Shown: positions 1,703 through 63,514 of the stretch, one piece after another | How the letters are laid out: each line of letters opens with the position of its first letter | Position numbering within the stretch: position 1 is the stretch's first letter | Source of the DNA: an uncultured Dokdonia sp. | Lineage (GTDB): Bacteria; Bacteroidota; Bacteroidia; Flavobacteriales; Flavobacteriaceae | DNA: 64,000 nt | Assembly: GCF_947496725.1 (NCBI RefSeq) | Contig: NZ_CANMDS010000003.1 | Location: forward strand, 124,001 to 188,000 | Direction of reading: 5' to 3' | Notes under the pieces: generated by a model | The model's database searches: none | The model's input: the letters and a program-made list of their open reading frames with translations, nothing else | What the model was told of the DNA's origin: nothing | Made by a program: the position numbers and the translations under genes

Positions 1703-2215
1703 ATGCAAATTTCAGACTACATAAGAGACGTTCAAGACTTTCCTAAAGAAGGAATTACTTTTAAAGATATAACACCTCTGCTGGGAGATAAGACCGCTTT
1801 CGCGAAAGCGGAAGAAATTCTATACACACTAGTGCCAGAAGTAGCAATAGATGTTGTGGTAGGAATTGAAGCGAGAGGTTTCTTTTATGGACCACTACTT
1901 GCAAAAAGACTCAATGCTGGATTTGTACCCGTACGCAAGCCTAATAAACTACCTTATACTACCATTAAGAAAGATTATGATCTCGAGTATGGTACAGATG
2001 TACTAGAGATGCACAGTGACGCTATAAAGCCGGGAGATAAAGTGTTATTACACGATGATGTACTCGCAACGGGAGGAACGGCTGCTGCGGTAGTTGCAAT
2101 GATTGAGGAGCTAGGGGGAGAGGTAGTACAGTGTAATTTTATTATAGAACTCGATTTCTTAAATGGTAGGAGCAAGCTGCCAGGCAAACACGTTGCTGCT
2201 GCTATAACGTATTAA
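1703..2215 (+). CDS. apt: Adenine phosphoribosyltransferase
   Basis: A 170-residue cytoplasmic purine-salvage enzyme that converts adenine and PRPP to AMP and pyrophosphate. The N-terminus (IRDVQDFPKEGITFKDITPLL) is diagnostic for Apt. The PRPP-binding loop is VLLHDDVLATGGTAAA at about residues 114-129, and the adenine-contacting GIEARGFFYG block lies at 54-63. The length is normal. A copy of the iterated palindrome sits inside the gene and encodes Ala-Phe-Ala-Lys-Ala at residues 32-36 without disturbing the family pattern. Its stop codon overlaps that of the convergent TonB-receptor gene by four bases (TTAA), so the two genes share no spacer. Confidence 0.96.
   Translation: MQISDYIRDVQDFPKEGITFKDITPLLGDKTAFAKAEEILYTLVPEVAIDVVVGIEARGFFYGPLLAKRLNAGFVPVRKPNKLPYTTIKKDYDLEYGTDVLEMHSDAIKPGDKVLLHDDVLATGGTAAAVVAMIEELGGEVVQCNFIIELDFLNGRSKLPGKHVAAAITY
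1795..1810. repeat. Iterated palindrome CGCTTTCGCGAAAGCG, in-gene copy
   Basis: An exact 16-mer, extended by one base on each side (C...G), inside apt. It reads Ala-Phe-Ala-Lys-Ala in the apt frame. Confidence 0.9.
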
Positions 2216-4503
2216 AAACTGTACTGAAGACTAAAGTTAGGAGTGATGCCTAAAGATTTTACTGTAATTTTTTGAATTTCATCATTGCTATTTATGAGAT
2301 AATAGGTGTTGAGTATATTATTGTTGTCTAGTAAATTCCATATAGAGGCTCCTACTTGTACATTTTTAGAAAACAGCTCAAATTTATAAATAGCAGATAC
2401 GTCAAATCTCAAAAAGCTATCTGAAACACTACTGTTAGGTAGGTCATATATGATTTGACCATCTACAATAGGGTTTTCTTCTCTTGGGCTGGTGAGAGGT
2501 GTACCCGTACGCCAGTTAAAGCCTAGTGAAAATTTAAAATCATTAATAGTATAAGTAGAGCCGTAGGTGAGTGAGTGCCTTATATCTGTATTATTTGGGA
2601 AGCGTCTACCATTATTTAAACTCTCAAAATCAAAATTATTCTTACTAAAAGAGTAGGAGAGCCAGGTTCCAAATTTTTGAAACTGTTTGTTTACCAAAAA
2701 GTCTATACCCATCACATCATATGAGCCTACCGCATTTGTAAATTGAAACTGATTTTGAAAACCTTGACTACGTGAAGAAATTCCATCTACATTTTTAATA
2801 TATCCTTCTACACTTAACAGCCATTTACTCTTTGTATAGTCAAGGCTTACAGAAGCTTGTTTGCTTTTTAAAATAGGAAACGAATCATCATTTGCCGCAA
2901 TCCAGCGACTACGTTGCAATCCTAAAAAGTCATTTGGTTGATCAATTATTTGAAAAATAGACTGACTTTTAAACTCTCCCAAAGCACTTATTTTTAAAAA
3001 ACTCAAAAACCGCTGGCTAAAGCGTACTCTAGGCTCTATAATGAGGGTATTAAAAGTATCGAGATAATTACCTCTTACTCCCGTTATAAATTGTGTCCCT
3101 TTTGAGGGAGAGAGGTAAGAAAGTTCAGAATAGAGGCTATGTGTACGTATTACGTCGCGCTCATTACTAAAAAAGATGGGCCTATTAGTTTGTGCTAAGT
3201 TACGTGCGCCCACCTCTGTAAATTGATAGCCATTGTTCCAGATAAAGGTATCGGAGAGTTTGCTGCTTAGCTGAAGTTTTACTCCTACATCTAGTACTTC
3301 GTTTTCTTGATCTAGTTGTTGTCCGTTTTCTAAGTTAAAATTACGTGCATTAAGATTGTAATTTGATAGATAAAGCTCTACATCTGTCGTGTGTTTTTTG
3401 TTCCAGTTTCTGGTGTAAACTAGTCTTGCACCATTGTTACTCTGGTTAATACCGCTACGCTCATTTATTTCTAAGGCTCTAATGGTCTCATCATACCCTA
3501 ACTTATTATAGATTGTGGTTGCACTAAGCTTAAGTTTGTCCTTTTTTGAAATATCATAAATAAGATTTGTACTTACATCATAAAAGTAAAAATTGAGATC
3601 TGAGACTTGTGATTCTTTATCACTATTTATACTCAAGTCTGTATCTTGAAAAATACGATCGGTATAGCTTGTATATGTAGGGCTTTGTATGAAATCAGTA
3701 TTAGAGCGTCTTGCAGAAAGAGAGAGGGTAAGTTTTTTTGAGACCGGAAGTGTAGCAAATCCTTTAAGATGAAGCAAGTTAGCACTCACACTGCCCTCAT
3801 AATCTGTAGCGACTTTATCATCTAGTTCAATATTTATAGTACCAGATACACCATCTCCGTATCGTGCGCTTGTGCCATTTTTAATAACTTCTACACGCTT
3901 TGTTAAGTAAGGATTAAAGGCAGATATAAGACCAAAAAAATGTCCAGATTGATACATTTTAATACCGTCCCATAAGATAAGATTTTGATCATTTGTGCCT
4001 CCACGTATATTTACATCAGACACAGTTTCTTCTGTGCTAAAAATACCGGGTAATGCTTGTACAGCTTGCAAAACATCAGGTTCTATTATGCCTGGTAGTA
4101 TCCCAAATTGTTCTGGGATGATACGCGTGATTCCAGATCTGGATTTTGAAATCCCGGTAGTAAGAAGGTTTGAGATGTAAATCTGGTCAAGCTCTTGTAC
4201 CTCATTAATGATATTTTCTGTAATAACTATAAATCGCTCATTAAGAAAATCAAAAGTGAGATCTGTATTGTTCTCAATATATTCAAGTGCTTTCGTGAGT
4301 GTAGACCCTTTAGATATATCTTTTATATATGTGGGAGCTACAATATGATCTGCATAAGAAAAGCTTACATTAAAAATAGCCTCTAGATTATTTAAAACTG
4401 TAGCTAGCGGAAGCGTTGCTGTATTTTGTTCTTGAGATTTTAGATCAGAAAAAAATAAACAACAAAGTAAAGTGAAGAATGTAAGTACACTTTTTTTAGT
4501 CAC
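2212..4503 (-). CDS. TonB-dependent receptor with N-terminal STN signalling domain
   Basis: A 763-residue outer-membrane receptor. A signal peptide (to about residue 23) is followed by an STN/secretin-TonB N-terminal domain (about 28-95, LATVLNNLEAIFNVSFSYAD). Next come a plug domain (about 110-220, with GIIEPDVLQAVQALPGI and NIRGGTNDQNLILWDGIKMY) and a 22-strand-type barrel ending in a terminal Phe. The STN domain marks a receptor that signals to an anti-sigma factor, here FecR encoded immediately upstream with an 8-bp overlap. No SusD gene is adjacent, so the substrate may be iron-siderophore, a peptide or an oligosaccharide; the sequence does not say which. The last gene of the sigma/anti-sigma/receptor operon; its stop overlaps that of apt. 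Confidence 0.9.
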   Translation of the reverse strand: MTKKSVLTFFTLLCCLFFSDLKSQEQNTATLPLATVLNNLEAIFNVSFSYADHIVAPTYIKDISKGSTLTKALEYIENNTDLTFDFLNERFIVITENIINEVQELDQIYISNLLTTGISKSRSGITRIIPEQFGILPGIIEPDVLQAVQALPGIFSTEETVSDVNIRGGTNDQNLILWDGIKMYQSGHFFGLISAFNPYLTKRVEVIKNGTSARYGDGVSGTINIELDDKVATDYEGSVSANLLHLKGFATLPVSKKLTLSLSARRSNTDFIQSPTYTSYTDRIFQDTDLSINSDKESQVSDLNFYFYDVSTNLIYDISKKDKLKLSATTIYNKLGYDETIRALEINERSGINQSNNGARLVYTRNWNKKHTTDVELYLSNYNLNARNFNLENGQQLDQENEVLDVGVKLQLSSKLSDTFIWNNGYQFTEVGARNLAQTNRPIFFSNERDVIRTHSLYSELSYLSPSKGTQFITGVRGNYLDTFNTLIIEPRVRFSQRFLSFLKISALGEFKSQSIFQIIDQPNDFLGLQRSRWIAANDDSFPILKSKQASVSLDYTKSKWLLSVEGYIKNVDGISSRSQGFQNQFQFTNAVGSYDVMGIDFLVNKQFQKFGTWLSYSFSKNNFDFESLNNGRRFPNNTDIRHSLTYGSTYTINDFKFSLGFNWRTGTPLTSPREENPIVDGQIIYDLPNSSVSDSFLRFDVSAIYKFELFSKNVQVGASIWNLLDNNNILNTYYLINSNDEIQKITVKSLGITPNFSLQYSF

Positions 4504-5398
4504 GTGATAAAGTTACCTTATTTCCCTGTTTTTTATGGGATAAATTAAACGGTAAGCTTATTGACTTTAAAGCAATCTCCATATCAAGATGTGTAAATGT
4601 ACCTGTAAAGAGTAGGTTTTCTACTTCTTTATCTAAAGATACAGTTACGTTATAATGTCTCTCAAATTCTTTAAGTACTTCACCTAGAGGTGTTTTTTCA
4701 AACGAGGTTTCATTAACTATCCAAGAGGGTTGAGATAGCGCAGTACTTGTATTTGTACTAGCTATTTTTACGCTTTCGCGAAAGCGGTCTCCAGGTTTTA
4801 ATATCACAGTATGCTCACCAGTATCAACTTGTACTGATCCCTCGTAGCAGTATACTTCAAACTTATCATCTCTATTGCGCACATTAAACTGGGTCCCTAG
4901 TACTGAAATCACACCATTAGAAGTCTCAACGCTAAATGTAGCACCCTTTGCCACCTGAAAGTAGGCTTCGCCATCTAGTGTCACAGCTCTAAATTCATCC
5001 CAAGTCGCTGGATCATAATATAAATCAGACATTGCATTAATCGTAACAATAGAATTATCTGGTAAAGTCACAACCTCTTTTTGAGCAATGGCAGTTGTTA
5101 TCTCAACGGTTTGTTGTGATAATGTAGTAGCATAATAAATACCTGCAAACAAGATGAGAATTGCTGCGACTTTAAGAAATGGCTTGAGATAGATTATTCC
5201 AGATTTTTTCTTGGTGTCTAAGCTAGTCTGTAATCTCTCATACTCTTGTGTAGCCTTATATGCTGGTGGTACAAGCTGTTTTGTGGTCTCTGCGATACGC
5301 ACAAGATCTTCGTAATCCTCAAGACGCTTAAACTCCTGAAGCTCTGCCTCAGACAGCTCATTGTCTAACCACTTTGTTATTAATTGTTCTCTTTCCAT
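4496..5398 (-). CDS. FecR-type anti-sigma factor
   Basis: A 300-residue inner-membrane regulator. A cytoplasmic N-terminal part (1-70, charged) should hold the ECF sigma factor. It is followed by one transmembrane helix (about 72-92, PFLKVAAILILFAGIYYATT), a periplasmic FecR domain (about 95-215, including VTLPDNSIVTINAMSDLYY and GTQFNVR) and a C-terminal DUF4974/STN-like domain (about 230-298, FEKTPLGEVLKEFERHYNV). This is the Bacteroidota FecR layout. It links ligand binding at the receptor to sigma release. It overlaps the receptor gene by 8 bp and lies 40 bp downstream of the sigma gene. It carries one iterated palindrome, read here as Arg-Phe-Arg-Glu-Ser. Confidence 0.92.
   Translation of the reverse strand: MEREQLITKWLDNELSEAELQEFKRLEDYEDLVRIAETTKQLVPPAYKATQEYERLQTSLDTKKKSGIIYLKPFLKVAAILILFAGIYYATTLSQQTVEITTAIAQKEVVTLPDNSIVTINAMSDLYYDPATWDEFRAVTLDGEAYFQVAKGATFSVETSNGVISVLGTQFNVRNRDDKFEVYCYEGSVQVDTGEHTVILKPGDRFRESVKIASTNTSTALSQPSWIVNETSFEKTPLGEVLKEFERHYNVTVSLDKEVENLLFTGTFTHLDMEIALKSISLPFNLSHKKQGNKVTLSRD
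4771..4786. repeat. Iterated palindrome, in-gene copy
   Basis: An exact copy of the 16-mer inside the FecR gene. It is the one exact coding copy read in a different frame (Arg-Phe-Arg-Glu-Ser). Confidence 0.9.
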
Positions 5399-8065: not shown

Positions 8066-8067
8066 AG

Positions 8068-8151: not shown

Positions 8152-8167
8152 CGCTTTCGCGAAAGCG
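8152..8167. repeat. Iterated palindrome, intergenic copy
   Basis: An exact 16-mer; the symmetry extends three bases further on both sides (TTA...TAA). It lies between two convergent genes, after the terminator. Confidence 0.9.
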
Positions 8168-9611: not shown

Positions 9612-9627
9612 CGCTTTCGCGAAAGCG
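9612..9627. repeat. Iterated palindrome, intergenic copy
   Basis: An exact 16-mer flanked by TA on both sides, directly after the T-run of the terminator behind the small membrane gene. Confidence 0.9.
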
Positions 9628-11241: not shown

Positions 11242-12516
11242 ATGCAACGAGATACCGCCATTTTTGACCTAATACAAGAAGAAAAAGAACGCCAACTTAA
11301 TGGCCTTGAGCTTATTGCTTCAGAAAACTTTGTGAGTGACCAGGTAATGGAAGCCGCAGGATCTGTACTAACTAATAAATATGCAGAGGGGTATCCCGGT
11401 AAGCGCTATTATGGTGGTTGTGAAGTAGTAGACGAGGTTGAGACACTAGCTATCGAGCGTGCAAAAGAGCTTTTTGGCGCAGCTTATGCAAACGTACAGC
11501 CGCACTCAGGTTCTCAAGCAAACACGGCCGTTTTTCACGCTTGTTTAAAACCAGGAGATAAGTTTTTAGGTTTTGACCTTGCTCACGGTGGTCACTTAAC
11601 ACACGGGTCGCCAGTAAACTTTTCTGGTCGCTTATATAACCCTGTTTTTTACGGAGTAGATAAGGAAACAGGATTACTTAATTACGATAAAATACAAGAA
11701 ATAGCAACTGCAGAGCAGCCTAAAATGATCATAGCAGGTGCCTCTGCATACTCACGTGAGATTGATTATAAACGCTTTCGCGAAATTGCAGACTCAGTAG
11801 GCGCCATCCTTCTTGCAGATGTTGCTCATCCAGCAGGTCTTATTGCAAAAGGAATCATAGCAGACCCTATACCACACTGTCACGTAGTAACAACTACTAC
11901 GCACAAAACACTAAGAGGGCCACGCGGTGGAATGATACTTATGGGTGAAGATTTTGAAAACCCTTTTGGGATCACACTTAAAAGTGGAAAGAAACGTATG
12001 ATGTCTTCTCTACTAGATAGTGGTATTTTTCCAGGTAACCAAGGAGGACCATTAATGCACGTGATAGGAGCAAAGGCAATTGCCTTTGGAGAAGCACTTA
12101 CAGATGAGTTTTTACACTATATGGTGCAGGTTAAGAAAAATGCAACTACACTAGCAGATGCACTTGTGCTTAAAGGGTATGACATTATATCTGGAGGTAC
12201 AGATAACCATATGATGCTTATAGACCTACGCAATAAAGATGTAACGGGTAAAGCTGCCGAAGAAGCGCTAGGTAAGGCAGACATTACGGTAAACAAGAAT
12301 ATGGTGCCATTTGATGATAAGTCACCATTTGTAACTTCTGGTATACGCATAGGTACTGCTGCAGTAACTACACGTGGTCTTGTAGAAGGTGATATGCACG
12401 AGATTGCAAACTTTATAGACAAGGCAATACAGCACCACGATAATGACGAGGTGCTAGAAAACGTAGCAAAGAGTGTAAACGAGATGATGGGGCACAGACC
12501 ATTGTTTAAAGCATAA
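11242..12516 (+). CDS. glyA: Serine hydroxymethyltransferase
   Basis: A 424-residue PLP enzyme interconverting serine and glycine and charging tetrahydrofolate with one-carbon units. It opens with [20 protein letters not shown]. It contains [18 protein letters not shown] (about 50-67), [15 protein letters not shown] for cofactor and folate contacts, [10 protein letters not shown], and the PLP lysine in [16 protein letters not shown] (Lys about 226). Full length with no gaps. The sequence KRFREIA contains a half copy of the iterated palindrome (11772-11784). A strong terminator follows. Confidence 0.97.
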
Positions 12517-13303: not shown

Positions 13304-13319
13304 CGCTTTCGCGAAAGCG
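13304..13319. repeat. Iterated palindrome, intergenic copy
   Basis: An exact 16-mer flanked by TA...TA, in the divergent gap 20 bp before the pyrophosphohydrolase start. Confidence 0.9.
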
Positions 13320-19915: not shown

Positions 19916-20031
19916 TACGCTTTCGCGAAAGCGCTATTACCTAATTCTTCATATACAGCAAGTGATTGATAAACAGTACAATGTTTATTATGGGGCTTGT
20001 ATTGTCTAATTTTTTTCTCAATATCTGCCAT
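19912..20031 (-). CDS. Possible 39-residue ORF ending in the palindrome
   Basis: The minus strand encodes MADIEKKIRQYKPHNKHCTV and onward, ending Ser-Ala-Phe-Ala-Lys-Ala-Tyr, where the last residues come from an iterated palindrome. Its stop overlaps the moxR stop by two bases. It is too short to judge; it may be a real small protein, a remnant or chance. Confidence 0.25.
   Translation of the reverse strand: MADIEKKIRQYKPHNKHCTVYQSLAVYEELGNSAFAKAY
19918..19933. repeat. Iterated palindrome, intergenic copy
   Basis: An exact 16-mer starting two bases after the moxR stop codon. Confidence 0.9.
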
Positions 20032-20667: not shown

Positions 20668-20683
20668 CGTTTTCGCGAAAGCG
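20668..20683. repeat. Iterated palindrome, one-mismatch copy
   Basis: CGTTTTCGCGAAAGCG differs at one position from the consensus. It lies just after the lipoprotein stop and before its terminator. Confidence 0.75.
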
Positions 20684-24240: not shown

Positions 24241-24256
24241 CGCTTTCGCGAAAGCG
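24241..24256. repeat. Iterated palindrome, intergenic copy
   Basis: An exact 16-mer extended by A...T, between the HxlR gene and the Crp/Fnr gene. Confidence 0.9.
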
Positions 24257-26200: not shown

Positions 26201-26240
26201 AATGCGTGTATACGACTCTTGTATACACGCATTATTTTTT
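26201..26240 (+). terminator. Hairpin terminator or attenuator just before tlpA
   Basis: Arms AATGCGTGTATAC (26201-26213) and the exact reverse complement (26221-26233) with a seven-base loop, followed by ATTTTTT. The T-run ends directly at the start codon of the next gene, so it may also act as a 5-prime leader hairpin. Confidence 0.8.
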
Positions 26241-26813
26241 ATGAAAAAGCAAAAGAAGTTTACCTGGCAAAATGTTCTATTTATAGTAGTGATATTGTTG
26301 TTACTTATACCACAAACTAGAACGCCTATACAGGTGGCCTTAAATAAAGTTAAGATGGCAATTTTTTCTCCTTCCGCTTTCGCGAAAGCGGACCAGCAAC
26401 AACTTAAACCATTTACATATAGCCTTACATCACTAGATGGAGCGCCCAAAGAAGTATCTATAGGAACAGGAAAAGTAACCTTTATAAGTTACTGGGCTAC
26501 CTGGTGCCCGCCTTGTATAGCAGAGCTACCATCTATAGAAGCTTTATATGAAGATTATGGCGACAAAGTAGAATTTTTACTTATCACAAATGAAAACCCA
26601 GAAGTAGTAGCCCGGTTTATGGCAAAAAAAGATCACAAACTACCGGCAGTCTTACCAGCTATGGAAACTCCAGAACAACTCTTTGAGCGTTCTATACCTA
26701 CAACATATATTATAGATAAAACAGGTCATATCATTATAAAAGAAAAAGGAGCATCAAACTGGAATAGTGATGCTGTGCGTACTACACTAGATGAGCTTAT
26801 TACCGAAGATTAA
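26241..26813 (+). CDS. TlpA-like membrane-anchored thioredoxin
   Basis: The start is taken at MKKQKKFTWQNVLFIVVILL, after the hairpin; the longer ORF begins inside the hairpin. It has 190 residues: one N-terminal signal anchor (about 10-28), a linker, then a thioredoxin domain with the redox motif Trp-Cys-Pro-Pro-Cys (in YWATWCPPCIAELPSI, about residues 84-99) and the cis-Pro in RSIPTTYIIDKTGH. TlpA-type proteins reduce periplasmic disulfides, for example in cytochrome c maturation. The linker carries an iterated palindrome read Ser-Ala-Phe-Ala-Lys-Ala-Asp. Its stop overlaps the convergent lipoprotein gene by four bases. Confidence 0.9.
   Translation: MKKQKKFTWQNVLFIVVILLLLIPQTRTPIQVALNKVKMAIFSPSAFAKADQQQLKPFTYSLTSLDGAPKEVSIGTGKVTFISYWATWCPPCIAELPSIEALYEDYGDKVEFLLITNENPEVVARFMAKKDHKLPAVLPAMETPEQLFERSIPTTYIIDKTGHIIIKEKGASNWNSDAVRTTLDELITED
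26375..26390. repeat. Iterated palindrome, in-gene copy
   Basis: An exact 16-mer with symmetric C...G flanks in the linker between the membrane anchor and thioredoxin domain of the TlpA-like gene, read Ala-Phe-Ala-Lys-Ala. Confidence 0.9.
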
Positions 26814-27909: not shown

Positions 27910-29847
27910 TTATAAGTCTAGGTCAAAGGTCTTTCTCAAAATATCCAGAGCAGGATTTTGCTCTCTTAATTTATCGTATTTTTCTTGAGGAGTGTAGGCA
28001 TATTTGCGCTGTACTTCTTCATTTACAGTGATATCAAGGGTGATATCATAGTTTTTTAAGCTTCTTTTTAAATATTCAAGTAGTGGGCCTTGTGCTCGTT
28101 CTACCTCAATTTTCATTGTTTCGTTAGGGTACTCTAGTTCTATAGTCGTACCGTTAAGAGTAGGTTGGTCTGCCTCAAGGTTTGAAGCGATGATGCGTTC
28201 TCCTTTTTGTAGTAATTTTTGTACGTAAGAAGCCCAAGCGGCTTGCATTGCGATTTCTGTAAAAGGTTCTGATGGCAAGTTTTGCACATCTACTTTTTTA
28301 TCTGCCTTTTGTTGTTCAAGTTCTTTTTTGCGTTGCAATCCTTTTAGAGAAAGCCCTGATACTCTGTCTTTACGTATAGATAGGCTTGGAGTTGCCTGTG
28401 TAGTAGGTGAGACTTGAGCAGATACAGGTTGCTCTGGTTGAGCAGGAGTAGCTGGACTTGTTTGCTCTGTTGCTGGTACAGTTGCATTAGTTTCAACGGT
28501 GGTTGGTGAAACTTGCGTAGTCACTTGCGACTCATTATCGCTTACTGGAGTAGCTATGTTGTTATTTACGGGCTGCTTTTCTGTAATAGCTGGTTCTTGT
28601 ACCTGTTGTACAGGTGATGTTTGTTGAGCTTGCGTAGGGCTATGTACGGCTTGCCCTTGTGGAGTTTGAGGTTGTGCTACCTGCTGTACGGCCGGAGTGT
28701 TAACTTGAATTTGTGTTGTTTGTGTAGCACCTACCTTATAATAAGATGGCGGAACTATGAATGGACCGTCATTTTTTTTTTCTCCATCAAAAGTGATAGA
28801 GGCAAGTTGCATAAGGCTTAGTTCTACCAGTAATCTCTGGTTGCGACTAGTTCTATACTTGAGATCACAACTGTTTGCAATATCTATCGCTTCCATTAAG
28901 AAAGCCATTGTTGTTTTTTGTGATTGCTCGTAATATTTTTTCTTAGTACTGTCACCTACTTCTAGTAAATGTATTGTAGGTGGGTTTTTACAAACCATTA
29001 GGTCTCTAAAGTGGGATGCAAGACCCGCGATAAAGTGATGCCCGTCAAAACCTCTTGCTAGGATATCATTAAACTGTACGAGTACCTGCGGGATATCATT
29101 TGCAAGTAAAAGATCTGTAGTTGTAAAGTAGGTGTCGTAGTCTAATACGTTTAGATTTTCGGTTACCGCTTTTCGCGAAAGCGTCTTTCCACTAAAACTT
29201 ACTACTCTGTCAAAAATTGATAATGCGTCACGCATTGCTCCATCTGCTTTTTGTGCGATAATGTGCAGTGCTTCTTCATCTGCTTCTATCCCTTCTTCGT
29301 CAGCGATTTGTACTAAGTGCTTGCGCGCGTCTGCTACTGTGATACGTTTAAAGTCAAATATTTGACAACGTGAGAGTATAGTAGGTATGATTTTATGCTT
29401 CTCTGTGGTGGCAAGTATGAATATGGCGTGCTTAGGTGGTTCTTCTAGTGTTTTAAGAAAAGCGTTAAAAGCAGCTGCAGAGAGCATATGGACCTCATCT
29501 ATAATATAAACTTTGTACTTACCTACTTGAGGAGGTATACGTACTTGATCTATGAGGCTTCGTATATCATCTACAGAGTTATTTGAAGCGGCATCTAGCT
29601 CAAAAACATTGAAGGCAAAGTCTTCATCTGGGCTAGTATTTTCGTCTGTGTTAATCTGTTTTGCTAGTATACGTGCACAACTCGTCTTTCCCACTCCTCT
29701 AGGACCACAAAAAAGTAGTGCCTGTGCTAGGTGGTTGTTTTGAATCGCATTTTCAAGCGTGTTAGTAATAGCCTGTTGTCCCACAACATCTTTAAAGGTG
29801 GTAGGGCGATATTTTCGAGCTGATACTATGAAGGGTTCCATACTCAC
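27910..29847 (-). CDS. dnaX: DNA polymerase III subunit gamma/tau
   Basis: A 645-residue clamp-loader subunit. The AAA+ core (1-360) shows YRPTTFKDVVGQQAITNTLE, Walker A GPRGVGKTS (about 48-56), DEVHML and sensor 1 ATTEKHKIIPTILSRCQIFDF. Between Walker A and the ELDAASNNSVDDIR block the usual four-Cys zinc module is missing (only INTDENTSPDEDFAF remains). A Gln/Thr/Pro-rich linker spans about 385-490, then a C-terminal tau-type domain. A degraded palindrome with one extra T (29168-29184) encodes LSRKAV. No clear frameshift signal for a short gamma form was seen. Confidence 0.95.
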   Translation of the reverse strand: MSMEPFIVSARKYRPTTFKDVVGQQAITNTLENAIQNNHLAQALLFCGPRGVGKTSCARILAKQINTDENTSPDEDFAFNVFELDAASNNSVDDIRSLIDQVRIPPQVGKYKVYIIDEVHMLSAAAFNAFLKTLEEPPKHAIFILATTEKHKIIPTILSRCQIFDFKRITVADARKHLVQIADEEGIEADEEALHIIAQKADGAMRDALSIFDRVVSFSGKTLSRKAVTENLNVLDYDTYFTTTDLLLANDIPQVLVQFNDILARGFDGHHFIAGLASHFRDLMVCKNPPTIHLLEVGDSTKKKYYEQSQKTTMAFLMEAIDIANSCDLKYRTSRNQRLLVELSLMQLASITFDGEKKNDGPFIVPPSYYKVGATQTTQIQVNTPAVQQVAQPQTPQGQAVHSPTQAQQTSPVQQVQEPAITEKQPVNNNIATPVSDNESQVTTQVSPTTVETNATVPATEQTSPATPAQPEQPVSAQVSPTTQATPSLSIRKDRVSGLSLKGLQRKKELEQQKADKKVDVQNLPSEPFTEIAMQAAWASYVQKLLQKGERIIASNLEADQPTLNGTTIELEYPNETMKIEVERAQGPLLEYLKRSLKNYDITLDITVNEEVQRKYAYTPQEKYDKLREQNPALDILRKTFDLDL

Positions 29848-31086: not shown

Positions 31087-31421
31087 TGGAGTATAGCAAA
31101 GAAAAATATGAACGCGCAAAAAAACGCGTAGCAGATGAGAAAGGTTTTTATAATCACCTTACCGTCTATCTAGTAATAAACACCTTACTACAGCTGTTTT
31201 ATTCAGGTATCTTTTTTGACTTACATATCGGTGAGTATGCGCCGTGGTGGGTGCGATTTACAACACCATTTTTCTGGGGATTGTCTCTATTTATACATTG
31301 GATTTATGTTTTTAAAGGCTTTAGATTCTTAAAAGGTATACGTAAGTGGGAAGAGCGCAAGATTAAAGAGTTTATGCAAGAAGAGGAGGAAGAGTTTTCT
31401 TCACGCTTTCGCGAAAAATAG
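31086..31421 (+). CDS. 2TM domain protein, copy 3
   Basis: A 111-residue protein with MEYSKEKYERAKKRVADEKG, two membrane helices separated by a longer loop (FDLHIGEYAPWW) and the closing RKWEERKIKEFMQEEEEEF. The very acidic tail ends in a half palindrome read Arg-Phe-Arg-Glu. Starts in the stop codon of copy 2; the amidohydrolase gene begins 5 bp later, so all belong to one transcript. Confidence 0.85.
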   Translation: MEYSKEKYERAKKRVADEKGFYNHLTVYLVINTLLQLFYSGIFFDLHIGEYAPWWVRFTTPFFWGLSLFIHWIYVFKGFRFLKGIRKWEERKIKEFMQEEEEEFSSRFREK

Positions 31422-31426: not shown

Positions 31427-32563
31427 ATGAAAACACTACTACTCACGCTCCTGCTAGTTATAACTTCTATAACTAGCGCTCAAGGAGATTTTGTTATAAA
31501 CAATGTAACACTATTTAATGGTGAAGAAATTTTAGAAAACCGCTCTGTAGCAGTAAGTAACGGAACGATAACTAAAGTATCTAAAAGACCCCAAAAAGCC
31601 GAAACCATCATAGACGGTCGAGGTAAATTCTTAATGCCAGCTCTTACAAATGCACACGTGCACACTTGGGCATTACCACAGCTTAAAGAAGCAGCTCAAG
31701 CGGGAGTGCTCAACCTACTAGATATGCACGGTATGGAACCTATGCAAAAAGCAATGGTAGAAGCCAGAACCTCTCTAGATGGTGCCAGATTATACAGAGC
31801 GGGATATGCTGCCACGACAGAGGGTGGTCACGGTACACAATATGGATTTCCTATACCCACTTTAAGCAAACCAGCAGATGCTGAACCGTGGGTGAATGAC
31901 AGAGTAGCTGCAGGTGTAGATTATATTAAAATCATAGTAGAGCCGTGGAAGAAAACTCTAGATAAAGAAACGGTAGCACAGATTATAAATGAAGCACACA
32001 AAGCAAGTAAAATTGCAGTTGTACACGTTTCAAATGAAGAAGATGCTTATAATTCCTTAATTAGTAATGCAGATGGACTCGTACATATCTATCACGATAA
32101 ACCTATGACAGACCAGCATTTGCAAAAGCTGGTAGGAGAGAAGGACTTTTTTGTAATTCCTACAATTTTAACCACAGTATTGATACAGCCTTTATACTTT
32201 AATAAAACTACAGAGGAGACAGCTCTTATAGAAGCAAATCTTTTAAAAGAGGTAAAACGTTTGTATGACGCTGGTATACCTATACTAGCAGGTACAGATC
32301 CACCTAATGCAAATATTAATATAGGAAGTGATTTGTATAAAGAGTTGGCTTTTTTCGCGAAAGCGGGATTACCCATAGAGGCTGTACTAGCAAGTGCTAC
32401 GTCACTACCTGCAGAGAAGTTCTCTCTAGAAGGAGTAGGGTACATAAAGAAAGGTTATAAAGCAGATTTGCTATTGCTGGAGCAATCACCAGTAAATGAT
32501 GTAATGAAGCTCAATACATTATCACATATCTGGAAAGAAGGTACCCTTGTCGAGCAAGAATAA
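31427..32563 (+). CDS. Secreted amidohydrolase family protein
   Basis: A 378-residue protein with a signal peptide (MKTLLLTLLLVITSITSAQG) and an amidohydrolase TIM barrel. Metal-site motifs are visible: PALTNAHVHTW (His-x-His), a carboxylatable Lys in VDYIKIIVEPW, single His residues in KIAVVHVSNEEDA and GLVHIYHDKP, and the catalytic Asp in PILAGTDPPNAN. A composite beta domain frames the barrel (INNVTLFNGEEIL, KKGYKADLLLLEQSP). It may be a periplasmic or secreted dipeptidase-like or imidazolonepropionase-like hydrolase; the substrate is unknown. It lies between the 2TM genes and the LytTR regulator, and has a half palindrome (read Phe-Ala-Lys-Ala). Confidence 0.86.
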   Translation: MKTLLLTLLLVITSITSAQGDFVINNVTLFNGEEILENRSVAVSNGTITKVSKRPQKAETIIDGRGKFLMPALTNAHVHTWALPQLKEAAQAGVLNLLDMHGMEPMQKAMVEARTSLDGARLYRAGYAATTEGGHGTQYGFPIPTLSKPADAEPWVNDRVAAGVDYIKIIVEPWKKTLDKETVAQIINEAHKASKIAVVHVSNEEDAYNSLISNADGLVHIYHDKPMTDQHLQKLVGEKDFFVIPTILTTVLIQPLYFNKTTEETALIEANLLKEVKRLYDAGIPILAGTDPPNANINIGSDLYKELAFFAKAGLPIEAVLASATSLPAEKFSLEGVGYIKKGYKADLLLLEQSPVNDVMKLNTLSHIWKEGTLVEQE

Positions 32564-35839: not shown

Positions 35840-35855
35840 CGCTTTCGCGAAAGCG
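35840..35855. repeat. Iterated palindrome, intergenic copy
   Basis: An exact 16-mer in the pepT/pyrD divergent gap. Confidence 0.9.
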
Positions 35856-39559: not shown

Positions 39560-39575
39560 CGCTTTCGCGAAAGCG
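39560..39575. repeat. Iterated palindrome, intergenic copy
   Basis: An exact 16-mer flanked by TA...TA, 41 bp upstream of the glucosidase start. Confidence 0.9.
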
Positions 39576-39999: not shown

Positions 40000-41370
40000 A
40001 TGAAAAAATTAATGATCAGTGCTGCGGCGCTAGTATTTGCTACAACAGTTGTAGCGCAAGACAATGTAAGCTCTGTAGAGCAAGTAGGAGATGCAAACCT
40101 TTCTACAGTATTACAAGTAGGATCTATTAACAACAACAAACTAGTTACTAAGGGGGACAATAACACTGCAGAGGTAGTATCTCTAGGTAGAAACAACCGT
40201 AATGTAAATAGTCAAGGTGGAGATGATAACAACTTTGAAGTATTACAAACAGGAAGTCACAACTCTTCTAGAGTTAACCAAGGTCAAGTATCTAGTAACG
40301 GTGCTGTGACACGTGTAGGTAATGACAACGAGGCTCGTTTATTACAAGATGGAGTAGGAAACTCTTCTGTAATTAATCAATACTCTGCAACTCCTGGACA
40401 ACTATCTAATGACAATGAGGCTGTTGTAAGTCAAGTAGGAGATGGTAATGCAAGTGTTGTAGGTCAAGACGGAGATTTTAACTTTGCAGACACTGCTCAA
40501 AATGGAAATGATAACGACGCTATCGTAAGCCAGGTTGGAGATTCTAACTTTTCTGAAGTAGATGCGCAAGGTAACTCTAACGTTGCAAGAGTATACCAAG
40601 GTGGACAGTCTAACACTAGTACAATTCTTTCTTCTGGAAACGGAAACTTTGCAGATACTGCTCAACAAGGAACTCTTAATGATTCTACAGTAGATCAGTT
40701 TGGAGACGGAAACTCTTCTGAGGTAGACGCACAAGGTAACTCAAACATTGCACGTACGTACCAAGGTGGTAATAACAACGACAGTTCTATATTTTCTACA
40801 GGAGATAGCAACTTTGCAGATACAGCACAGCAAGGTAATGGTAATAGCTCTGAAGTAATCCAGACTGGAGATTCTAACTTTTCTGAAGTAGACCAACAAG
40901 GTAACGGAAACTTAAATTTTGTTTCTCAAGTAAGTAATAATAGTAGCTCTGACGTTTTTCAAGTAGGAGACGGAAATGATACTCGTGTAAGCCAGTTAGG
41001 TGAGAGCCAGGTGTCTTTTGTATCACAACTAGGTGATTCAAATGTTGCACGTGTTTATCAAGGTGGAGATTCTAACTTAAGTGTTATTGCTCAAGACGGT
41101 ACTTCAAACTTTGCAGATACAGCACAGCAAGGTACTAATAACTTATCTGGAGTTTTACAGATGGGAACAGGTAACCAGTCTGAAGTAGATCAATTAGGAA
41201 CTGCAAACCTTTCTTTAGTAGGTCAATTTGGAGCAGGAAACGTATCTACAGTATTACAAGACGGTACGTCTAACGGGTCTCTAGTAGGTCAGTTAGGTAC
41301 AGGTAACACAAGTACAGTTTCTCAAACAGGAACTGGTAACGCTTCTGTAGTATTACAAGCTGGATTCTAA
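40000..41370 (+). CDS. Long curlin-repeat (CsgA-like) amyloid-type protein
   Basis: A 456-residue secreted protein: signal peptide MKKLMISAAALVFATTVVAQ, then about 39 consecutive 11-residue strands with few breaks. The consensus is V-x-Q-x-G-x-x-N-x-x-x, for example VSQVGDGNASV and TAQQGNGNSSE. This is the curlin repeat: paired strands form one 22-residue rung of a beta-solenoid, with Gln/Asn ladders. E. coli CsgA has five rungs; this has about nineteen. Some blocks (VDAQGNSNVARVYQGG, NFADTAQQG) recur nearly unchanged, pointing to recent internal duplication. Two irregular segments (QYSATPGQLSND and VSNNSSSD) interrupt the ladder. No csgB, csgE, csgF or csgG gene is near. It likely forms extracellular fibres for biofilm or attachment. 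Monocistronic with terminator. Confidence 0.88.
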   Translation: MKKLMISAAALVFATTVVAQDNVSSVEQVGDANLSTVLQVGSINNNKLVTKGDNNTAEVVSLGRNNRNVNSQGGDDNNFEVLQTGSHNSSRVNQGQVSSNGAVTRVGNDNEARLLQDGVGNSSVINQYSATPGQLSNDNEAVVSQVGDGNASVVGQDGDFNFADTAQNGNDNDAIVSQVGDSNFSEVDAQGNSNVARVYQGGQSNTSTILSSGNGNFADTAQQGTLNDSTVDQFGDGNSSEVDAQGNSNIARTYQGGNNNDSSIFSTGDSNFADTAQQGNGNSSEVIQTGDSNFSEVDQQGNGNLNFVSQVSNNSSSDVFQVGDGNDTRVSQLGESQVSFVSQLGDSNVARVYQGGDSNLSVIAQDGTSNFADTAQQGTNNLSGVLQMGTGNQSEVDQLGTANLSLVGQFGAGNVSTVLQDGTSNGSLVGQLGTGNTSTVSQTGTGNASVVLQAGF

Positions 41371-41489: not shown

Positions 41490-41505
41490 CGCTTTCGCGA
41501 AAGCG
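41490..41505. repeat. Iterated palindrome, intergenic copy
   Basis: An exact 16-mer flanked by TA...TA, about 70 bp upstream of pyrR and just upstream of its likely promoter. Confidence 0.9.
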
Positions 41506-47990: not shown

Positions 47991-48889
47991 TGCTTAACAT
48001 ATTAAAATACGCTGCAATAGATATAGGTTCTAATGCAATTAGATTACTTGTTGCAAATATAATTGAGCAAGAAAACGGGCCCACATTATTTAGAAAAAAT
48101 GCCTTAGTACGCGTGCCCATACGCCTAGGAGAAGATGTCTTTATTAATGGAGAAATCTCTTTGAAAAATCAGGCACGTATGGAAGATGCGATGAAAGCCT
48201 TTAGACTACTTATGAATGCACACCAGGTAAAAGAATACCGTGCCTGTGCTACCAGTGCGATGAGAGATGCAAAAAATGGTCACGCTTTCGCGAAAAAAAT
48301 AAAAGAAACCTCAAATATTAATATTGAAATTATAGACGGAGAAGAAGAGGCACAAATTATCGCCGCTACAGATCTTCAAAGTTTTATAAAAGAAGATAGA
48401 ACATACATCTACGTAGATGTAGGAGGTGGAAGCACAGAGATAACTATTTACCATATGGGTAAAGTTGTAGCCTCAAGGTCCTTTAAAATAGGAACAGTAA
48501 GACTTCTTAATGATTTGGTTTCTTCAGAAGATTGGGAGGTATTTAAAAACTGGATACATCAGCACTGTAAAGATTTTAATCACATAGACCTTATAGGCTC
48601 TGGAGGTAACATTAATAAAGTGTTTAAACTGAGTACAAAAAAACCAGGTAAAACGTTATCATATTTATTCTTATCACAACTATACAAAGATTTAAGTGAT
48701 ATGAGCTACGAGCAACGCGTGATAGAATTACAGCTTAATCCAGACCGTGCAGACGTTATAATACCAGCTTTAAGAATATACCTACAAGCAATGAAGTCGT
48801 CAAAAGCAAAGCAAATTATTGTCCCAAAAATTGGTCTTGCAGATGGTATTATCAAAAGTTTATATCTTTCAAAACAAATGTTAACATAA
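47990..48889 (+). CDS. ppx: Exopolyphosphatase / Ppx-GppA family phosphatase
   Basis: A 299-residue ASKHA-fold protein that removes terminal phosphate from polyphosphate or guanosine pentaphosphate. GTG start within the ppk1 stop. The phosphate-binding loops are YAAIDIGSNAIRLLVANI (phosphate-1) and YVDVGGGSTEITIYHMGKV (phosphate-2), with ACATSAMRDAKNG in between. The protein is the short, C-terminally truncated Bacteroidota form. A half palindrome encodes His-Ala-Phe-Ala-Lys. Its pairing with ppk1 gives polyphosphate turnover from a single transcript. Confidence 0.92.
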   Translation: MLNILKYAAIDIGSNAIRLLVANIIEQENGPTLFRKNALVRVPIRLGEDVFINGEISLKNQARMEDAMKAFRLLMNAHQVKEYRACATSAMRDAKNGHAFAKKIKETSNINIEIIDGEEEAQIIAATDLQSFIKEDRTYIYVDVGGGSTEITIYHMGKVVASRSFKIGTVRLLNDLVSSEDWEVFKNWIHQHCKDFNHIDLIGSGGNINKVFKLSTKKPGKTLSYLFLSQLYKDLSDMSYEQRVIELQLNPDRADVIIPALRIYLQAMKSSKAKQIIVPKIGLADGIIKSLYLSKQMLT

Positions 48890-51282: not shown

Positions 51283-51298
51283 CGCTTTCGCGAAAGCG
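51283..51298. repeat. Iterated palindrome, intergenic copy
   Basis: An exact 16-mer, symmetry extended by TTA...TAA, between two minus-strand membrane-protein genes. Confidence 0.9.
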
Positions 51299-54243: not shown

Positions 54244-57200
54244 GTGTACAAAGTTAAAACAATAAGCCCTATCAAGAAATTTAAAAAAATAGCACTTCGC
54301 ACTCTTTTGGTGTTGTTCTTACTATTTGGGCTCATTGTGCTGCTTTTTTCTATTCCCGCGGTACAAACTCGTATTGCAAAAAATGCAACAGATCGTATTA
54401 ATGATAAGTATGGTACAGAGATTCATCTAGAGCGCGTAGGTCTTAAATGGAATGGTGATGTACTCGTAAAAGGTACACTTATAAAAGATCACAAAAATGA
54501 CACGATGATTTACGTGCGTGAGCTAGCCACAAGTGTTTTTAGCTTACAAAAAGTATTAGATAGTGATCTTGAACTGGGAGATATAAGCCTAGATGGTGTG
54601 CGATTTTATCTTACTAAATATAAGGGCGACACCTCTGATAACTTATCATTGTTTTCACGCAAGTTTGCTTCTCAAAATCCTAAAGGCAGTACAAATTTCC
54701 TTCTCTCATCAGACGATGTAGATATTACAGATGGTAGATTTATGTATATAAATGAGGAGCTTGATGACCCTTTTGTGCTAGATTATCAAAATCTCTCTAC
54801 AGACTGGCAAGACTTTGTACTTAACAATGAGACGGTAGATGCTCATATAAGAGCACTCTCTTTTGATGCCATAAAAGGATATCAAATTAGGACACTAGAT
54901 GGCCTATTTCACTACGATCCAGATTTAATTTCTCTTAAAGAATTTTCATTAACTACAGATGATTCTTCACTTGAGGGCGACATTACCTTAGATACCTCAG
55001 ATGGTGCACTAGATGATTTTAACACACTGGTAGAGGTGGAGGCCGCTTTCGCGAAAGCGGAAATATCAACAAACGATATACGCCCTTTTTATAATGACAT
55101 CGCACCAGATATTATATTAGATATAAAAGGTAACCTCACGGGACATCTCAATGATTTTAGGGTTCCTAATCTTGAGGTCCGAGGTTTAGGGAAATCCCTG
55201 ATACGAGGAAATGTTTTTTTTGAAAATTTACTAGACAGTAATGGCTTTAGAATTTCTGGTAATTATCAAACCGTACAAACAAGTTATTTTGACCTTAAAA
55301 AGTTACTGCCCAAGCCACTTGCGAGTCTACCTACAGAAATAACACAACTTGGAACAATACGTTTTACAGGAAATAACGCACTTACAAGTGAGGCTGTTGT
55401 GACAGAAGGTATTATAACCACAGATCTAGGTACAGTAAACCTTGACCTTGCAATGACTGGCTTACAAGATGCAGATAATGCTGGTTATGAAGGTACCGTG
55501 ATAGTAGATGATTTTAACCTAGGTAAGTTATTTAATGATGAAAGGCTAGGTAATGCTACATTTAACCTAGATGTAGATGGTAAGGGATTTATACAAGAAA
55601 CGGTAAACACAAAGCTTTCTGGGACGATTGCAAGCCTAAATTATAACGACTATACGTATAAGGATATTACAATTTTTGGAAATCTTAAAGCTCCAGTTTT
55701 TGACGGAGAAGTACTCATAGATGATCCTAATGCTCGGGGTAAGTTTAATGGACTGGTAGATATCTCAAAAGATGTAAATAGTTATGACCTAGAGGCACAA
55801 ATAGATTATGCAGATCTGGTAACCCTCAATTTTATTAACGATAGCATCTCTATTCTTAAAGGTAATGCTGTTGTAGATATGAAGGGTACAGGTATAGAGA
55901 ATATGTATGGCCGTATATCTTTTGAGGATGCTAGTTATCAAAATAAAAATAACACCTATAGCTTTAAAGATTTTGAGATTACTTCAAAGTTTGATAAAAA
56001 GCAAGTACGCACCATTGCTATAAACTCTACAGATATCATAAGTGGAGAGGTAAGTGGTATATACAAGTTTAGTGAAGTGGTTCCTCTTTTTAAAAATGCC
56101 ATAGGCAGTTTGTATACAAATTACCAACCTGAGATTCTTACAGAAAATCAGTTTATGGATTTTGAGTTTACGATCTATAATAAGATTGTAGAAGTCTTTG
56201 TGCCAGATTTAAAACTAGAGCCAGAGACTATTATAAGAGGTAGTGTGGTGGCAGACGACTCTGAGTTTAAACTCACCTTTAAGTCACCACAGATAGATGC
56301 CTTTGGGTATATGGCAGAAGCCATAGAAGTTCGTGTAGATAATAAGAACCCACTATTTAATACATACGTCGCTGCAGATAGTATAAACGCAGGATTTTAT
56401 GCTGTATCAGACTTTAATCTCATTAATGTGACACTTAAAGATACACTCTTTATGCGCTCAGAGTTTACAGGTGGTAAGCGCAATGATGACTCTTTTGACC
56501 TATCATTATACCATACAATTAATGAGGAAGGAAACTCTGTATTAGGTTTTAAAAAATCTGAAATCGTTTTTAAAGACAATCCTTGGTTTATTAATGAGAA
56601 AAATGATCAAAATAACAGTGTTGTCTTTGATAATAACTTTAAAGATATAGATATTAAAACGCTGGTGTTAAGTCATAAAGATGAGCTTATAGATCTCAAA
56701 GGACAAATACGTGATAGCACCTATAAGAACATAAAAGCAAATTTTAAAAATGTAGATTTAGCTAAGGTTACTCCAGAGCTGGACAGTCTTAATCTAGGAG
56801 GCCGTATTAATGGACAGCTAGATGTACTTCAGAAAAATGGAGCTTACTTACCTGTAACTTCTCTAGCAATTTCGGACTTCTCTGTAAATGAGACTAATCT
56901 TGGTCAGTTAGATATAAATGTAAGAGGTAATGCAACTTTATCAAAATATGAAATAGATTCCCGTCTTGCACGTGAGGGACTTAAATCTTTTACTGCTAGT
57001 GGTACTATAGATGCCGCAGGTACTACACCTATCATAGATATGGCTGTGGGTCTTCAAGATCTTGATCTAAGTCCGTTTAACCCTATGGGACAGGGCGTGA
57101 TAGATAGAATACGTGGTTTAGTGAGTGGTAGAGCAAAAGTAGAAGGTGACTATCGCAATCCTGAGATAAATGGTGATTTAACACTAAAAGATGCTGGGCT

Positions 57201-58720: not shown

Positions 58721-58736
58721 CGCTTTCGCGAAAGCG
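58721..58736. repeat. Iterated palindrome, intergenic copy
   Basis: An exact 16-mer, symmetry extended by TTA...TAA, 16 bp after the tamB stop. Confidence 0.9.
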
Positions 58737-62368: not shown

Positions 62369-63514
62369 CTATAAATCCTTACGGTAGGTTCTTCTACGTT
62401 TGTGAAGCTTGTGTTCGTAATTTTTCCAGAGCTGTTGTATGGCTTTATTTTCTTCTAGTTCTGGGTTTGTTTCAACTTGAGTAATTCCTCTAGAGTTAAA
62501 TAGTTCCTGCATTTTTTGAAAAATAACAGCTGTTACCCCTTTGTTTTGATACTCTGGATCAATACCTATAAGGTAGAAGGCAGCAGTGTCATTTTTCTTT
62601 TTTGCTTTAAGCAAGTGATAAAACCCAAAAGGAAAGAGCGATCCATTTGCTTTTTTGAGCGCTTCATTAAAAGATGGCATTGTAATAGCAAAAGCTACTA
62701 GTTTACCCTCCTTATCTTGTACACACTTTATAAAATCTGGGTGAATATATTTTATATATTTCTCCTTATAATGATCTATTTGATACTGCTGTATAGGTAC
62801 AAAGGTGCTAAGAGTATTATATGTCTTATTAAGTAACCCAAACATCTCATCTACATACGGCTTTACATCTGCAGAGGTTTTAAACTCTAGCGGGCTAAGC
62901 TCGTAGCGCTTTGCAATAATATCTGCAAACTTCTTCACTTTAGGGTTCTGCTTTTCTGGTGGGTCTATTTGAATTTTATATTCAACCCATTCGGCAGCTT
63001 TTTCAAAACCTAGTTGCTCAAAGTGATCCTTGTAATACGGGTAGTTATACCAAGTAATCATTGTGTTGAGATACTCAAACCCCTCTATCAGCAATCCTGC
63101 TTTCTCCATATTAGAAAAACCTACCGGCCCTTCTATAAACTCAAGATTGTTTTCTTTTCCTATCTCTGAGACTTTGGATAACAGTGCTTTAGTCACCTCT
63201 ATGTCATCTATTACATCAAACCAGCCAAAACGCATTTTTGATTTCTTTTGCTCGTTGATTTCTATATGATTTATGATAGCACATATTCTTCCTACGGCTT
63301 CTTGTTTTCCGTTTTCCGCTTTCGCGAAAGCGAGAAAATAACGTGCCTCTGCATTTTTAAACACAGGGTTTTTTGCCGGGTCCATACTATCTAGCTCATC
63401 TGCTACAATAGGAGGTACCCACTTAGGTTCATTTTTATATAGGGAAAATGGGAACTTAACAAATTGTTTAAGTTCTTTTGGGGTAATCATTTCCTTAAGC
63501 GTAATCATCTGCAA
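62369..63514 (-). CDS. GNAT-like protein of Bacteroidota type (381 aa)
   Basis: It starts at MQMITLKEMITPKELKQFVK or two codons later. The N-terminal part (FVKFPFSLYKNEPKWVPPIV, GFSNMEKAGLLIEGFEY) and the C-terminal part (AAFYLIGIDPEYQNKGVTAV, IFQKMQELFNSRGITQVETN) each look like an acetyltransferase fold; the Gln/Arg-x-x-Gly-x-Gly/Ala acetyl-CoA loop is seen as Gln-Asn-Lys-Gly-Val-Thr. Probably two GNAT-type domains in tandem. The substrate is unknown. An iterated palindrome near residue 62 reads Ala-Phe-Ala-Lys-Ala-Glu. Confidence 0.75.
   Translation of the reverse strand: MQMITLKEMITPKELKQFVKFPFSLYKNEPKWVPPIVADELDSMDPAKNPVFKNAEARYFLAFAKAENGKQEAVGRICAIINHIEINEQKKSKMRFGWFDVIDDIEVTKALLSKVSEIGKENNLEFIEGPVGFSNMEKAGLLIEGFEYLNTMITWYNYPYYKDHFEQLGFEKAAEWVEYKIQIDPPEKQNPKVKKFADIIAKRYELSPLEFKTSADVKPYVDEMFGLLNKTYNTLSTFVPIQQYQIDHYKEKYIKYIHPDFIKCVQDKEGKLVAFAITMPSFNEALKKANGSLFPFGFYHLLKAKKKNDTAAFYLIGIDPEYQNKGVTAVIFQKMQELFNSRGITQVETNPELEENKAIQQLWKNYEHKLHKRRRTYRKDL
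63317..63332. repeat. Iterated palindrome, in-gene copy
   Basis: An exact 16-mer inside the GNAT-like gene, read Ala-Phe-Ala-Lys-Ala on the minus strand. Confidence 0.9.

Follow-up and report, generated by a model that had tools for sequence, protein, structure and literature searches.

A genome-wide lattice of palindromic sites, putatively read by a lineage-specific factor, in Dokdonia and related flavobacteria

Introduction

What could a perfect 16-bp palindrome be doing when it recurs every few kilobases along a bacterial chromosome? The question is raised by a stretch of 64,000 nucleotides from an uncultured Dokdonia sp. (hereafter the window), which is part of contig 3 of the genome G000 (3,291,590 bp, 121 contigs, 99.98% complete). 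The window contains 21 matches to the palindrome CGCTTTCGCGAAAGCG with no more than three mismatches, 15 of them exact and six with one to three mismatches, compared with 0.11 expected and with a maximum of one in 100 dinucleotide shuffles. The starts of the 15 exact copies are identical to those given in the original prediction, a first reading of the window, and its one-mismatch copy at 20668 is also correct. Among its partial copies, those at 29168, 31404 and 48283 stand, with three mismatches each, whereas two had to be shifted, from 11772 to 11773 (two mismatches) and from 32353 to 32350 (three mismatches).

In the whole genome, 711 exact copies of the 16-mer are found in 3.29 Mb (about 216 per Mb), while the reversed word is absent. 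The claim that the palindrome is highly iterated throughout the genome is thus borne out, with a count far from the chance level, and the copies are not confined to the window. Each site is a sequence-specific element, evenly spaced and strongly conserved in place. Very probably, it is the recognition site of a shared, lineage-specific factor, and is kept where it covers a few kilobases of DNA.

Anatomy of a site

The anatomy was summarized from 1.26 Mb of sequence, namely the window, 400 kb of contig 1 of G000 and 40 stretches, each 20 kb long, from the close species G016. The core of the word, the 10-mer TTTCGCGAAA, occurs 409 times in this sample, 279 times as the full 16-mer, while the next commonest 10-mer centred on CGCG has 13 copies. 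Among the 88 copies of the 16-mer with one mismatch, 74 are altered at the outermost base alone (C to T in 52, to A in 22, to G in none), and changes at positions 2-8 combined account for 14. The consensus is a nearly invariant GCTTTCGCGAAAGC of 14 bp with preferred C...G ends, and a second class of sites consists of the core and a single outer arm only. For the inner 14-mer, 357 exact and 24 one-off copies were counted (ratio 14.9), compared with 0 and 0 for the reversed control. By the formula given in PMC2397512, and under its assumptions, 2Nes would be about 6.4, compared with about 4 given there for the DNA uptake sequence (DUS).

The signal extends beyond the palindrome. On both strands, the 5' flanks are depleted in C and enriched in T and G, reaching about 15-17 bp, with T+G peaks at -3, -6, -9 and -12 that are also present at intergenic sites alone and are seen in both Dokdonia and Nonlabens. 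At the intergenic sites of G000 and G016, A has a frequency of 0.81 at -1, and T of 0.89 at -2 and 0.68 at -3; C at -1 amounts to 0.20-0.36 in genes versus 0.09 between them. The extension of intergenic copies by TA or TTA, and of in-gene copies by C...G, had therefore been described broadly correctly, as judged by the base frequencies at -1 to -3.

Spacing

Cores recur about every 3 kb and exact copies every 4-5 kb, and the copies avoid each other. In the 400 kb of G000, the 101 exact sites have a mean distance of 3.9 kb with a coefficient of variation (CV) of 0.51, versus 0.99 for random positions; none of the 100 neighbour distances is below 500 bp (11.8 expected) and five are below 1000 bp (22.3 expected). 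The even spacing persists when the intergenic preference is built into the null model (0 of 5000). Imperfect copies tend to occupy the gaps between exact ones: the mean distance between the 31 imperfect sites and their closest exact neighbour is 2024 bp, versus 1231 bp expected (0 of 5000). For all 132 cores together, the CV is again 0.51, two of 131 distances are below 500 bp, and the maximum gap is 8.7 kb, compared with 16.4 kb expected. In G016, one of 124 distances between exact sites is below 500 bp (14.5 expected), which makes one of 224 for the samples of both genomes. The regularity is also present in 100 kb of the Nonlabens genome G248, where 20 exact copies and 25 cores were found, with a core CV of 0.32 versus 0.96 and a minimum distance of 2.0 kb.

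The 40 stretches of G016 contain 163 sites with a variance/mean of 0.68. The 11 stretches at 1.64-2.48 Mb have a mean of 2.9 sites, and the remaining 29 a mean of 4.5. A relation to the replication origin, raised in the original prediction, did not appear, as the trend with distance from the GC-skew minimum is not significant (rho -0.26, P 0.10); site density is correlated with GC content (rho 0.46, P 0.003). As for recently acquired DNA, a restriction-modification-like stretch of G016 (C1:2050001-2070000) has a single core within its 20 kb, and L317, a stretch with polysaccharide genes, has no exact copy and five imperfect cores, yet copper islands of other genera, described below, carry sites. 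In the former stretch, an Eco57I methylase (497 aa) adjoins an 837-aa protein with T5orf172 and ResIII.

Conservation and turnover

For the comparison of G000 with G016 (92.4% identical over 164 kb aligned), the sites were masked prior to alignment. In each direction, 35 of the 36 mapped exact sites are unchanged in these close, and hence not independent, species, compared with 0.44-0.46 of ordinary 16-mers; 80 and 144 sites lie outside the alignable sample. The conservation holds for noncoding (13/13, control 0.39) and coding sites (22/23, control 0.45), and 12 of 14 imperfect sites are unchanged as well. Compared with G007, G005, G003 and G011, at 73-77% identity, 11 of the 12 exact sites that could be mapped have stayed the same (controls 0.015-0.059), although these are not 12 independent tests, since only 4-5 of the 21 window sites could be mapped per genome and positions recur.

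Loci picked for holding the word in other genomes were also compared with their counterparts in G000 and G016, which were not so picked. For 18 Dokdonia sites, 11 counterparts are exact and 14 retain the core, compared with a control of 0.09; of the seven without an exact counterpart, three keep the core, one is off by one base and three have nothing. For Nonlabens, none of seven is kept (control 0.005), two of these possibly owing to alignment shifts. Of 12 Dokdonia genomes, 9 have an exact copy of the site next to parB, and a core is present at the matching offset in G013, G017 and G203, as judged by offsets compared without alignment; in G011 the copy is elsewhere, and neither Nonlabens locus has one. 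From these few loci, sites seem to persist within the genus and mostly to turn over between genera. The same word at changing positions suggests that the reader of the word, rather than the places, is common to the lineages.

Lineage distribution

All 18 Dokdonia genomes searched are rich in the word: the 17 congeners of G000 have 138-704 copies each, including 230 in G013, 248 in G017 and 556 in the one-contig G008, all 99% complete. In a search of 59 genomes, 20 had a match, namely the 18 Dokdonia, one Nonlabens (495 copies) and one with four copies. In a sample of the family (395 genomes of 203 genera), 54 genomes had a match, and more than 13 copies occur only in Dokdonia, Nonlabens (448, 495 and 579) and the genus of G203, represented by one genome in which the word is sparse (153 copies per 3.2 Mb); the remaining 200 genera carry 0-13. 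Among 247 genomes of the phylum, nine had a match, and none except G000 had more than two copies. In a scan of 84,980 species, each represented by one genome, at least 105 stretches with the word were found; among the matches listed, 85 belong to Dokdonia or Nonlabens, five to ‘Flavobacteria bacterium BBFL7’, which we take to be a Nonlabens, and 15 to others.

Could the relatives have dialects of their own? In 20 kb from each of 20 other genomes, no palindrome reached three copies, a test that a sparse dialect would escape and that also missed the palindrome itself in 20 kb of the site-rich G203, where two copies are present. In one of these 20, G030, a dispersed non-palindromic 12-mer was seen five times. 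In a tree of one gene, aconitase, the starred split separates G203 from Dokdonia and Nonlabens, and the position of G203 beyond it would mean more than one gain or loss; this single-gene tree, which places the site-poor G023, G034 and G109 among Dokdonia, is not relied on here. A search for aconitase in plasmids gave no match and is uninformative. Among open-licence papers, we found no account of the word, or of any iterated palindrome, in Dokdonia, Nonlabens or Krokinobacter. A paper on absent words of the human genome contains TTTCGCGAAA, and its excerpted text has no mention of Bacteroidetes, Flavobacter or Dokdonia (PMC8034619); another mentions neither Bacteroidetes, Dokdonia, Krokinobacter and Flavobacter nor TTTCGCG (PMC5217627).

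Position relative to genes

The genes were called as plain open reading frames (ORFs; minimum 60, 80 or 100 aa, greedy), so that the in-gene counts are rough. By these calls, 138 of the 279 exact sites are inside ORFs (0.50 versus 0.88 expected) and 133 are intergenic, with eight near stretch ends left unclassed. The intergenic enrichment is 6.6-fold in tandem and in convergent spaces and 4.4-fold in divergent ones. No site overlaps an ORF end, compared with 2.1% expected, and intergenic copies are closer to gene 3' ends than random positions (median 39 versus 105 bp).

Within genes, 83 of the 138 copies are read in the frame giving AFAKA. These copies are frequently early in the ORF, 28 of the 83 being within the first 45 codons (5/24 and 5/31 for the other frames), and the early ones often follow a hydrophobic stretch and precede Q or Y/S-Q, for example in L304:8746-9507 and G000 C1:378756-381293. 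Under the cleavage rule for signal peptides, AFAKA could act as a cleavage site in such ORFs.

The sites of the window, with their fate in other genomes, are as follows.

1795..1810: exact site, in the phosphoribosyltransferase ORF 1703-2215, reads AFAKA; 16-mer kept in G007, G005 and G003
4771..4786: exact site, in the FecR ORF 4496-5398; kept in G007 and G005
8152..8167: exact site, in a convergent intergenic space
9612..9627: exact site, intergenic
11773..11788: imperfect site (two mismatches), in the serine hydroxymethyltransferase (SHMT) ORF 11242-12516; the protein (RFREIAD) may explain its retention
13304..13319: exact site, intergenic; kept in G007, G005, G003 and G011
19918..19933: exact site, intergenic; kept in G016, absent in G011, with one base there instead
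20668..20683: intergenic site with one mismatch; the copy in G011 is exact, that in G016 unchanged
24241..24256: exact site, intergenic, upstream of a Crp-type regulator; kept in G016
26375..26390: exact site, in the redoxin ORF 26202-26813, reads AFAKA; one base different in G016, kept in G011
29168..29183: imperfect site, in the dnaX ORF 27910-29847; unchanged in G016
31404..31419: imperfect site with one arm; unchanged in G016
32350..32365: one-armed imperfect site, in an amidohydrolase ORF; unchanged in G016
35840..35855: exact site, close to the beginning of ORF 35803-36963 (the true start is possibly downstream of the site); kept in G016
39560..39575: exact site, divergent intergenic; kept in G016
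41490..41505: exact site, intergenic; kept in G016
48283..48298: one-armed imperfect site, in a Ppx/GppA ORF; unchanged in G016
51283..51298: exact site, intergenic; kept in G016
55044..55059: exact site, in the TamB-like ORF 54244-58704, reads AFAKA; kept in G016
58721..58736: exact site, intergenic, directly beyond the TamB-like ORF; kept in G016
63317..63332: exact site, in ORF 62369-63514 (no Pfam match), reads AFAKA; kept in G016 and G003

The site at 26375..26390 is the sole changed one among the 36 G000 sites mapped in G016. The original prediction had named no matching DNA-binding gene in the window; among 19 window ORFs that were compared with protein families, one encodes the Crp-type regulator (24341-25006). 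Between two of the sites, the window encodes at 40000-41370 (+) a 456-aa protein with several repeats that matches the curli subunit models CsgB/CsgA.

Islands and phages

In site-poor genera, the word is often clustered, with recurring spacings (933, 2446 and 3460 bp). We examined 18 stretches from 15 site-poor genomes, in which all 38 copies are inside ORFs. Fourteen of these stretches (L156-L159, L161-L168, L172 and L173), from 12 genomes (G111, G116, G303, G138, G167, G284, G128, G029, G326, G106, G427 and G131), share a related region at 67-99.9% identity by blastn. The proteins compared, those of L156, L157 and L168, have copper or heavy-metal functions: a resistance-nodulation-division (RND) pump (PF00873), an outer-membrane efflux protein (PF02321), a multicopper oxidase and a heavy-metal P-type ATPase. 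All 12 copies of G109 are within 75 kb of contig 3 (32-107 kb), and its spacings of 1460 and 2446 bp recur in contig 5 of G286 (180-240 kb), so that these clusters probably represent a large shared island. With the direction assumed, the simplest reading is that the island copies were transferred from site-rich lineages. At G376:C1:1099778-1109366, five consecutive copies are about 2.3-2.6 kb apart, perhaps in a tandem gene array.

In IMG/VR, the word occurs on 30 contigs (41 stretches), of which several GC-rich single matches may be due to chance; the densest contigs have one copy per 6 kb. Contig 3300040781_000495 has six copies in 37 kb, and the genes around two of these match portal and terminase families. 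The Nonlabens phages P12024L and P12024S (L404 and L405, about 35.7 kb each) have no copy of the palindrome, and not even TCGCGA.

What could read the word?

We infer that the word is recognized in Dokdonia, Nonlabens and the genus of G203 by a single lineage-specific factor that binds DNA as a dimer, and that purifying selection or drive retains a site if the stretch is not already covered by another. A protein binding the word was not found among the families profiled (three methyltransferase families, ParB, PilC and ComEC). The mechanism that we prefer, though it may well prove wrong, is a bidirectional self-mark for recombination or uptake, analogous to the DUS and the uptake signal sequence (USS) or to Chi. 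The sites would mark DNA fragments, so that most pieces of a few kilobases of the species' own DNA carry one. As with DUS/USS or Chi, a marked piece might be favoured in uptake or recombination or be protected from nucleases. Being a palindrome, a single word could be used from both ends. The copy number, the lineage restriction, the even spacing, the conservation in place and the intergenic preference count in favour of this reading, as does the presence of ComEC in all 22 site-rich genomes tested. RecA favours GT-rich DNA and binds it in triplets, and the T/G-rich 5' flanks, in which a 3-base rhythm is hinted at on both strands, would lend themselves to the loading of a RecA-type filament on either strand. 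Slightly more doubtful is the fuller version, in which uptake or recombination is steered, with neither a type IV pilus nor methylation, by a long bidirectional self-recognition lattice whose copies tag DNA passed to other genera.

Several observations weigh against a self-mark. None of the known DUS, USS and Chi sequences is palindromic, and for a palindrome a dimer acting inside the cell is at least as fitting a reader as an uptake receptor. The 3-base rhythm is a post hoc observation, its phase having been picked from the same data that give P values of 0.0096 (Nonlabens), 0.036 (G000) and 0.014 (G016) for T+G, and of 0.055, 0.055 and 0.018, respectively, for T alone. The lattice of G016 has holes, 12-16 kb free of cores, in 5 of 40 stretches, all within 1.72-2.48 Mb, and in the sparse G203 the ten copies listed look scattered rather than even. 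Sites on some phage contigs are not expected of a DUS, and site-bearing islands are present in site-poor genera. ComEC, found in 22 of 22 site-rich genomes, is also found in 13 of 14 site-poor ones and consequently does not discriminate. The PilC platform protein (PF00482, T2SSF/PilC) is present in 6 and absent from 10 of 16 site-rich genomes, and present in 1 of 14 site-poor ones, so that the pilus route of the known DUS systems is unlikely; uptake by a type IV pilus was rejected for G000, which has no PF00482 match.

A chromosome-folding site is nearly as likely as a self-mark. The sites would anchor a putative nucleoid-organising dimer and split the chromosome into units of a few kilobases, a possible though doubtful role with which the dyad symmetry, the near-absence of close neighbours, the chromosome-wide spread seen in the low variance/mean of G016 and the strong conservation agree. 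However, an essential lattice is hard to square with a density that varies about fivefold among congeners (138-711 copies, some genomes being incomplete, but 230 and 248 in the nearly complete G013 and G017) and with only 153 copies in the 3.2 Mb of G203. The core-free holes of G016 and the lack of a significant trend with distance from the skew minimum also speak against it, and no extra ParB-type protein tracks the word. A second ParB/Noc-like protein was rejected as a candidate, as each of the 30 genomes has a single strong match to HTH_ParB; a weak second one is present in two of the 16 site-rich genomes (G010 and G015) and in two of the 14 others (G029 and G034). Three near-canonical parS sites are located beside the GC-skew minimum of G016 (L296, C1:738001-758000), which together likely mark the origin.

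The original prediction regarded the palindrome as a protein-binding or methylation site and likened it to the highly iterated palindromes (HIPs) of cyanobacteria. The genome-wide iteration, with the behaviour of a protein-recognition site, stands, and so does the likeness to HIP1 as a highly iterated perfect palindrome; methylation finds no support in the three families tested, and the likeness does not extend to methyltransferase link, length and density. The even spacing, the very strong conservation and the islands of other genera go beyond what the original prediction covered. A palindrome made and kept by a methyltransferase with linked repair is accordingly improbable, even though HIPs accompany matching methyltransferases, according to excerpts of PMC4390886. 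G008, 99% complete and with its 556 copies, has no match to PF01555, PF00145 or PF02086, G000 has one PF02086 protein only, and PF02086 has no match in the site-rich G005, G007, G008, G027, G248 and G203. As these three families do not track the word, a HIP-like methyltransferase was rejected within them; the Eco57I, type I and other families are unsurveyed, and G016 has one Eco57I protein. Moreover, 14 nearly invariant bases with flanks exceed the usual methyltransferase sites. An element acting in RNA, as a terminator or hairpin, is very improbable. The absence of a loop had been claimed, although folding of one strand around CGCG as the loop is possible (predicted -8.3 and -10.5 kcal/mol with two extensions, -4.3 for the 16-mer), and intergenic copies do lie nearer to gene 3' ends than random. 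But half of the sites are inside ORFs, divergent spaces are enriched too, the downstream flank is A/C-rich with no T run, and an Rfam search of the window showed only a tRNA. The outer pair has 4 double versus 74 single changes, without an excess of compensated ones, and the CGCG loop is as fixed as the arms; a repetitive extragenic palindrome (REP) or hairpin repeat was thus rejected, as the original prediction had held, because the arms do not covary around a loop. An insertion element or mobile repeat is the least credible explanation. Copies ride islands common to several genera, and two counterparts are nearly empty, that of G011 at window position 19918 (one base) and that of L114 at 2503 (none). 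However, 8 of 10 core-less counterparts, one-base differences excluded, are exactly 16 bases long (one has 13 and one is empty; the masking may favour 16), site and non-site differ by a single base in 2 of 2 cases between G000 and G016, and the spacing is even.

Whichever role the putative reader has, whether in a self-mark or in folding, the sites form a genome-wide lattice of putative protein-recognition sites in marine flavobacteria, named isolates among them, conserved in position far above their surroundings, which makes it testable whether iterated palindromes serve chromosome folding, repair or sex. The same word at apparently different positions in Dokdonia and Nonlabens directs attention to the reader protein. 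DUS and USS serve as tracers of gene flow between Neisseria and Haemophilus, and the word, clustered on islands common to site-poor genera, may likewise be a built-in tracer. A self-recognition lattice of this kind, if real, would be an undescribed type of genome mark in Bacteroidota.

Comparison with known systems

In the excerpted accounts, the spacing of neisserial DUS matches conversion fragments, with stringent conservation and permissive positions (PMC2397512), the USS of Haemophilus is relatively evenly distributed (PMC7811141), and Riemerella columbina, itself a flavobacterium, is transformed preferentially by DNA of its own kind (PMC7965970). The present sites share with DUS/USS the hundreds to thousands of copies, the rather even spacing, the stringent conservation, the preference for intergenic or permissive positions and the possible use as a tag of intergenus transfer. 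They differ in being palindromes of 14-16 bp with symmetric flanks and in the lack of a PilC/GspF platform in G000; the ratio of exact to one-mismatch copies of the inner 14-mer is also far above the value of about 2.4 given in part of PMC2397512 for Neisseria.

With HIP1 and the alternate HIPs, the word has in common that a highly iterated perfect palindrome occurs both in and between genes. HIP1 has 8 bp, whereas the word has 14 nearly invariant bp and a flank signal. The HIP class is tied to DNA methyltransferases and reaches 1000-2000 copies per Mb in the excerpts of Elhai (2015, PMC4390886), compared with about 216 here, and no methyltransferase of the three families tracks the word.

The likeness to Chi lies in genome-wide marks, few-kb spacing and a GT-rich context. 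Chi is a short asymmetric sequence recognized on one strand, whereas the word is a long palindrome. Finally, parS, the Noc-binding sites and matS are palindromic targets of chromosome-organising dimers. The word is also a palindromic target, but with far more copies and another sequence, and near-canonical parS sites are separately present beside the skew minimum in G016.

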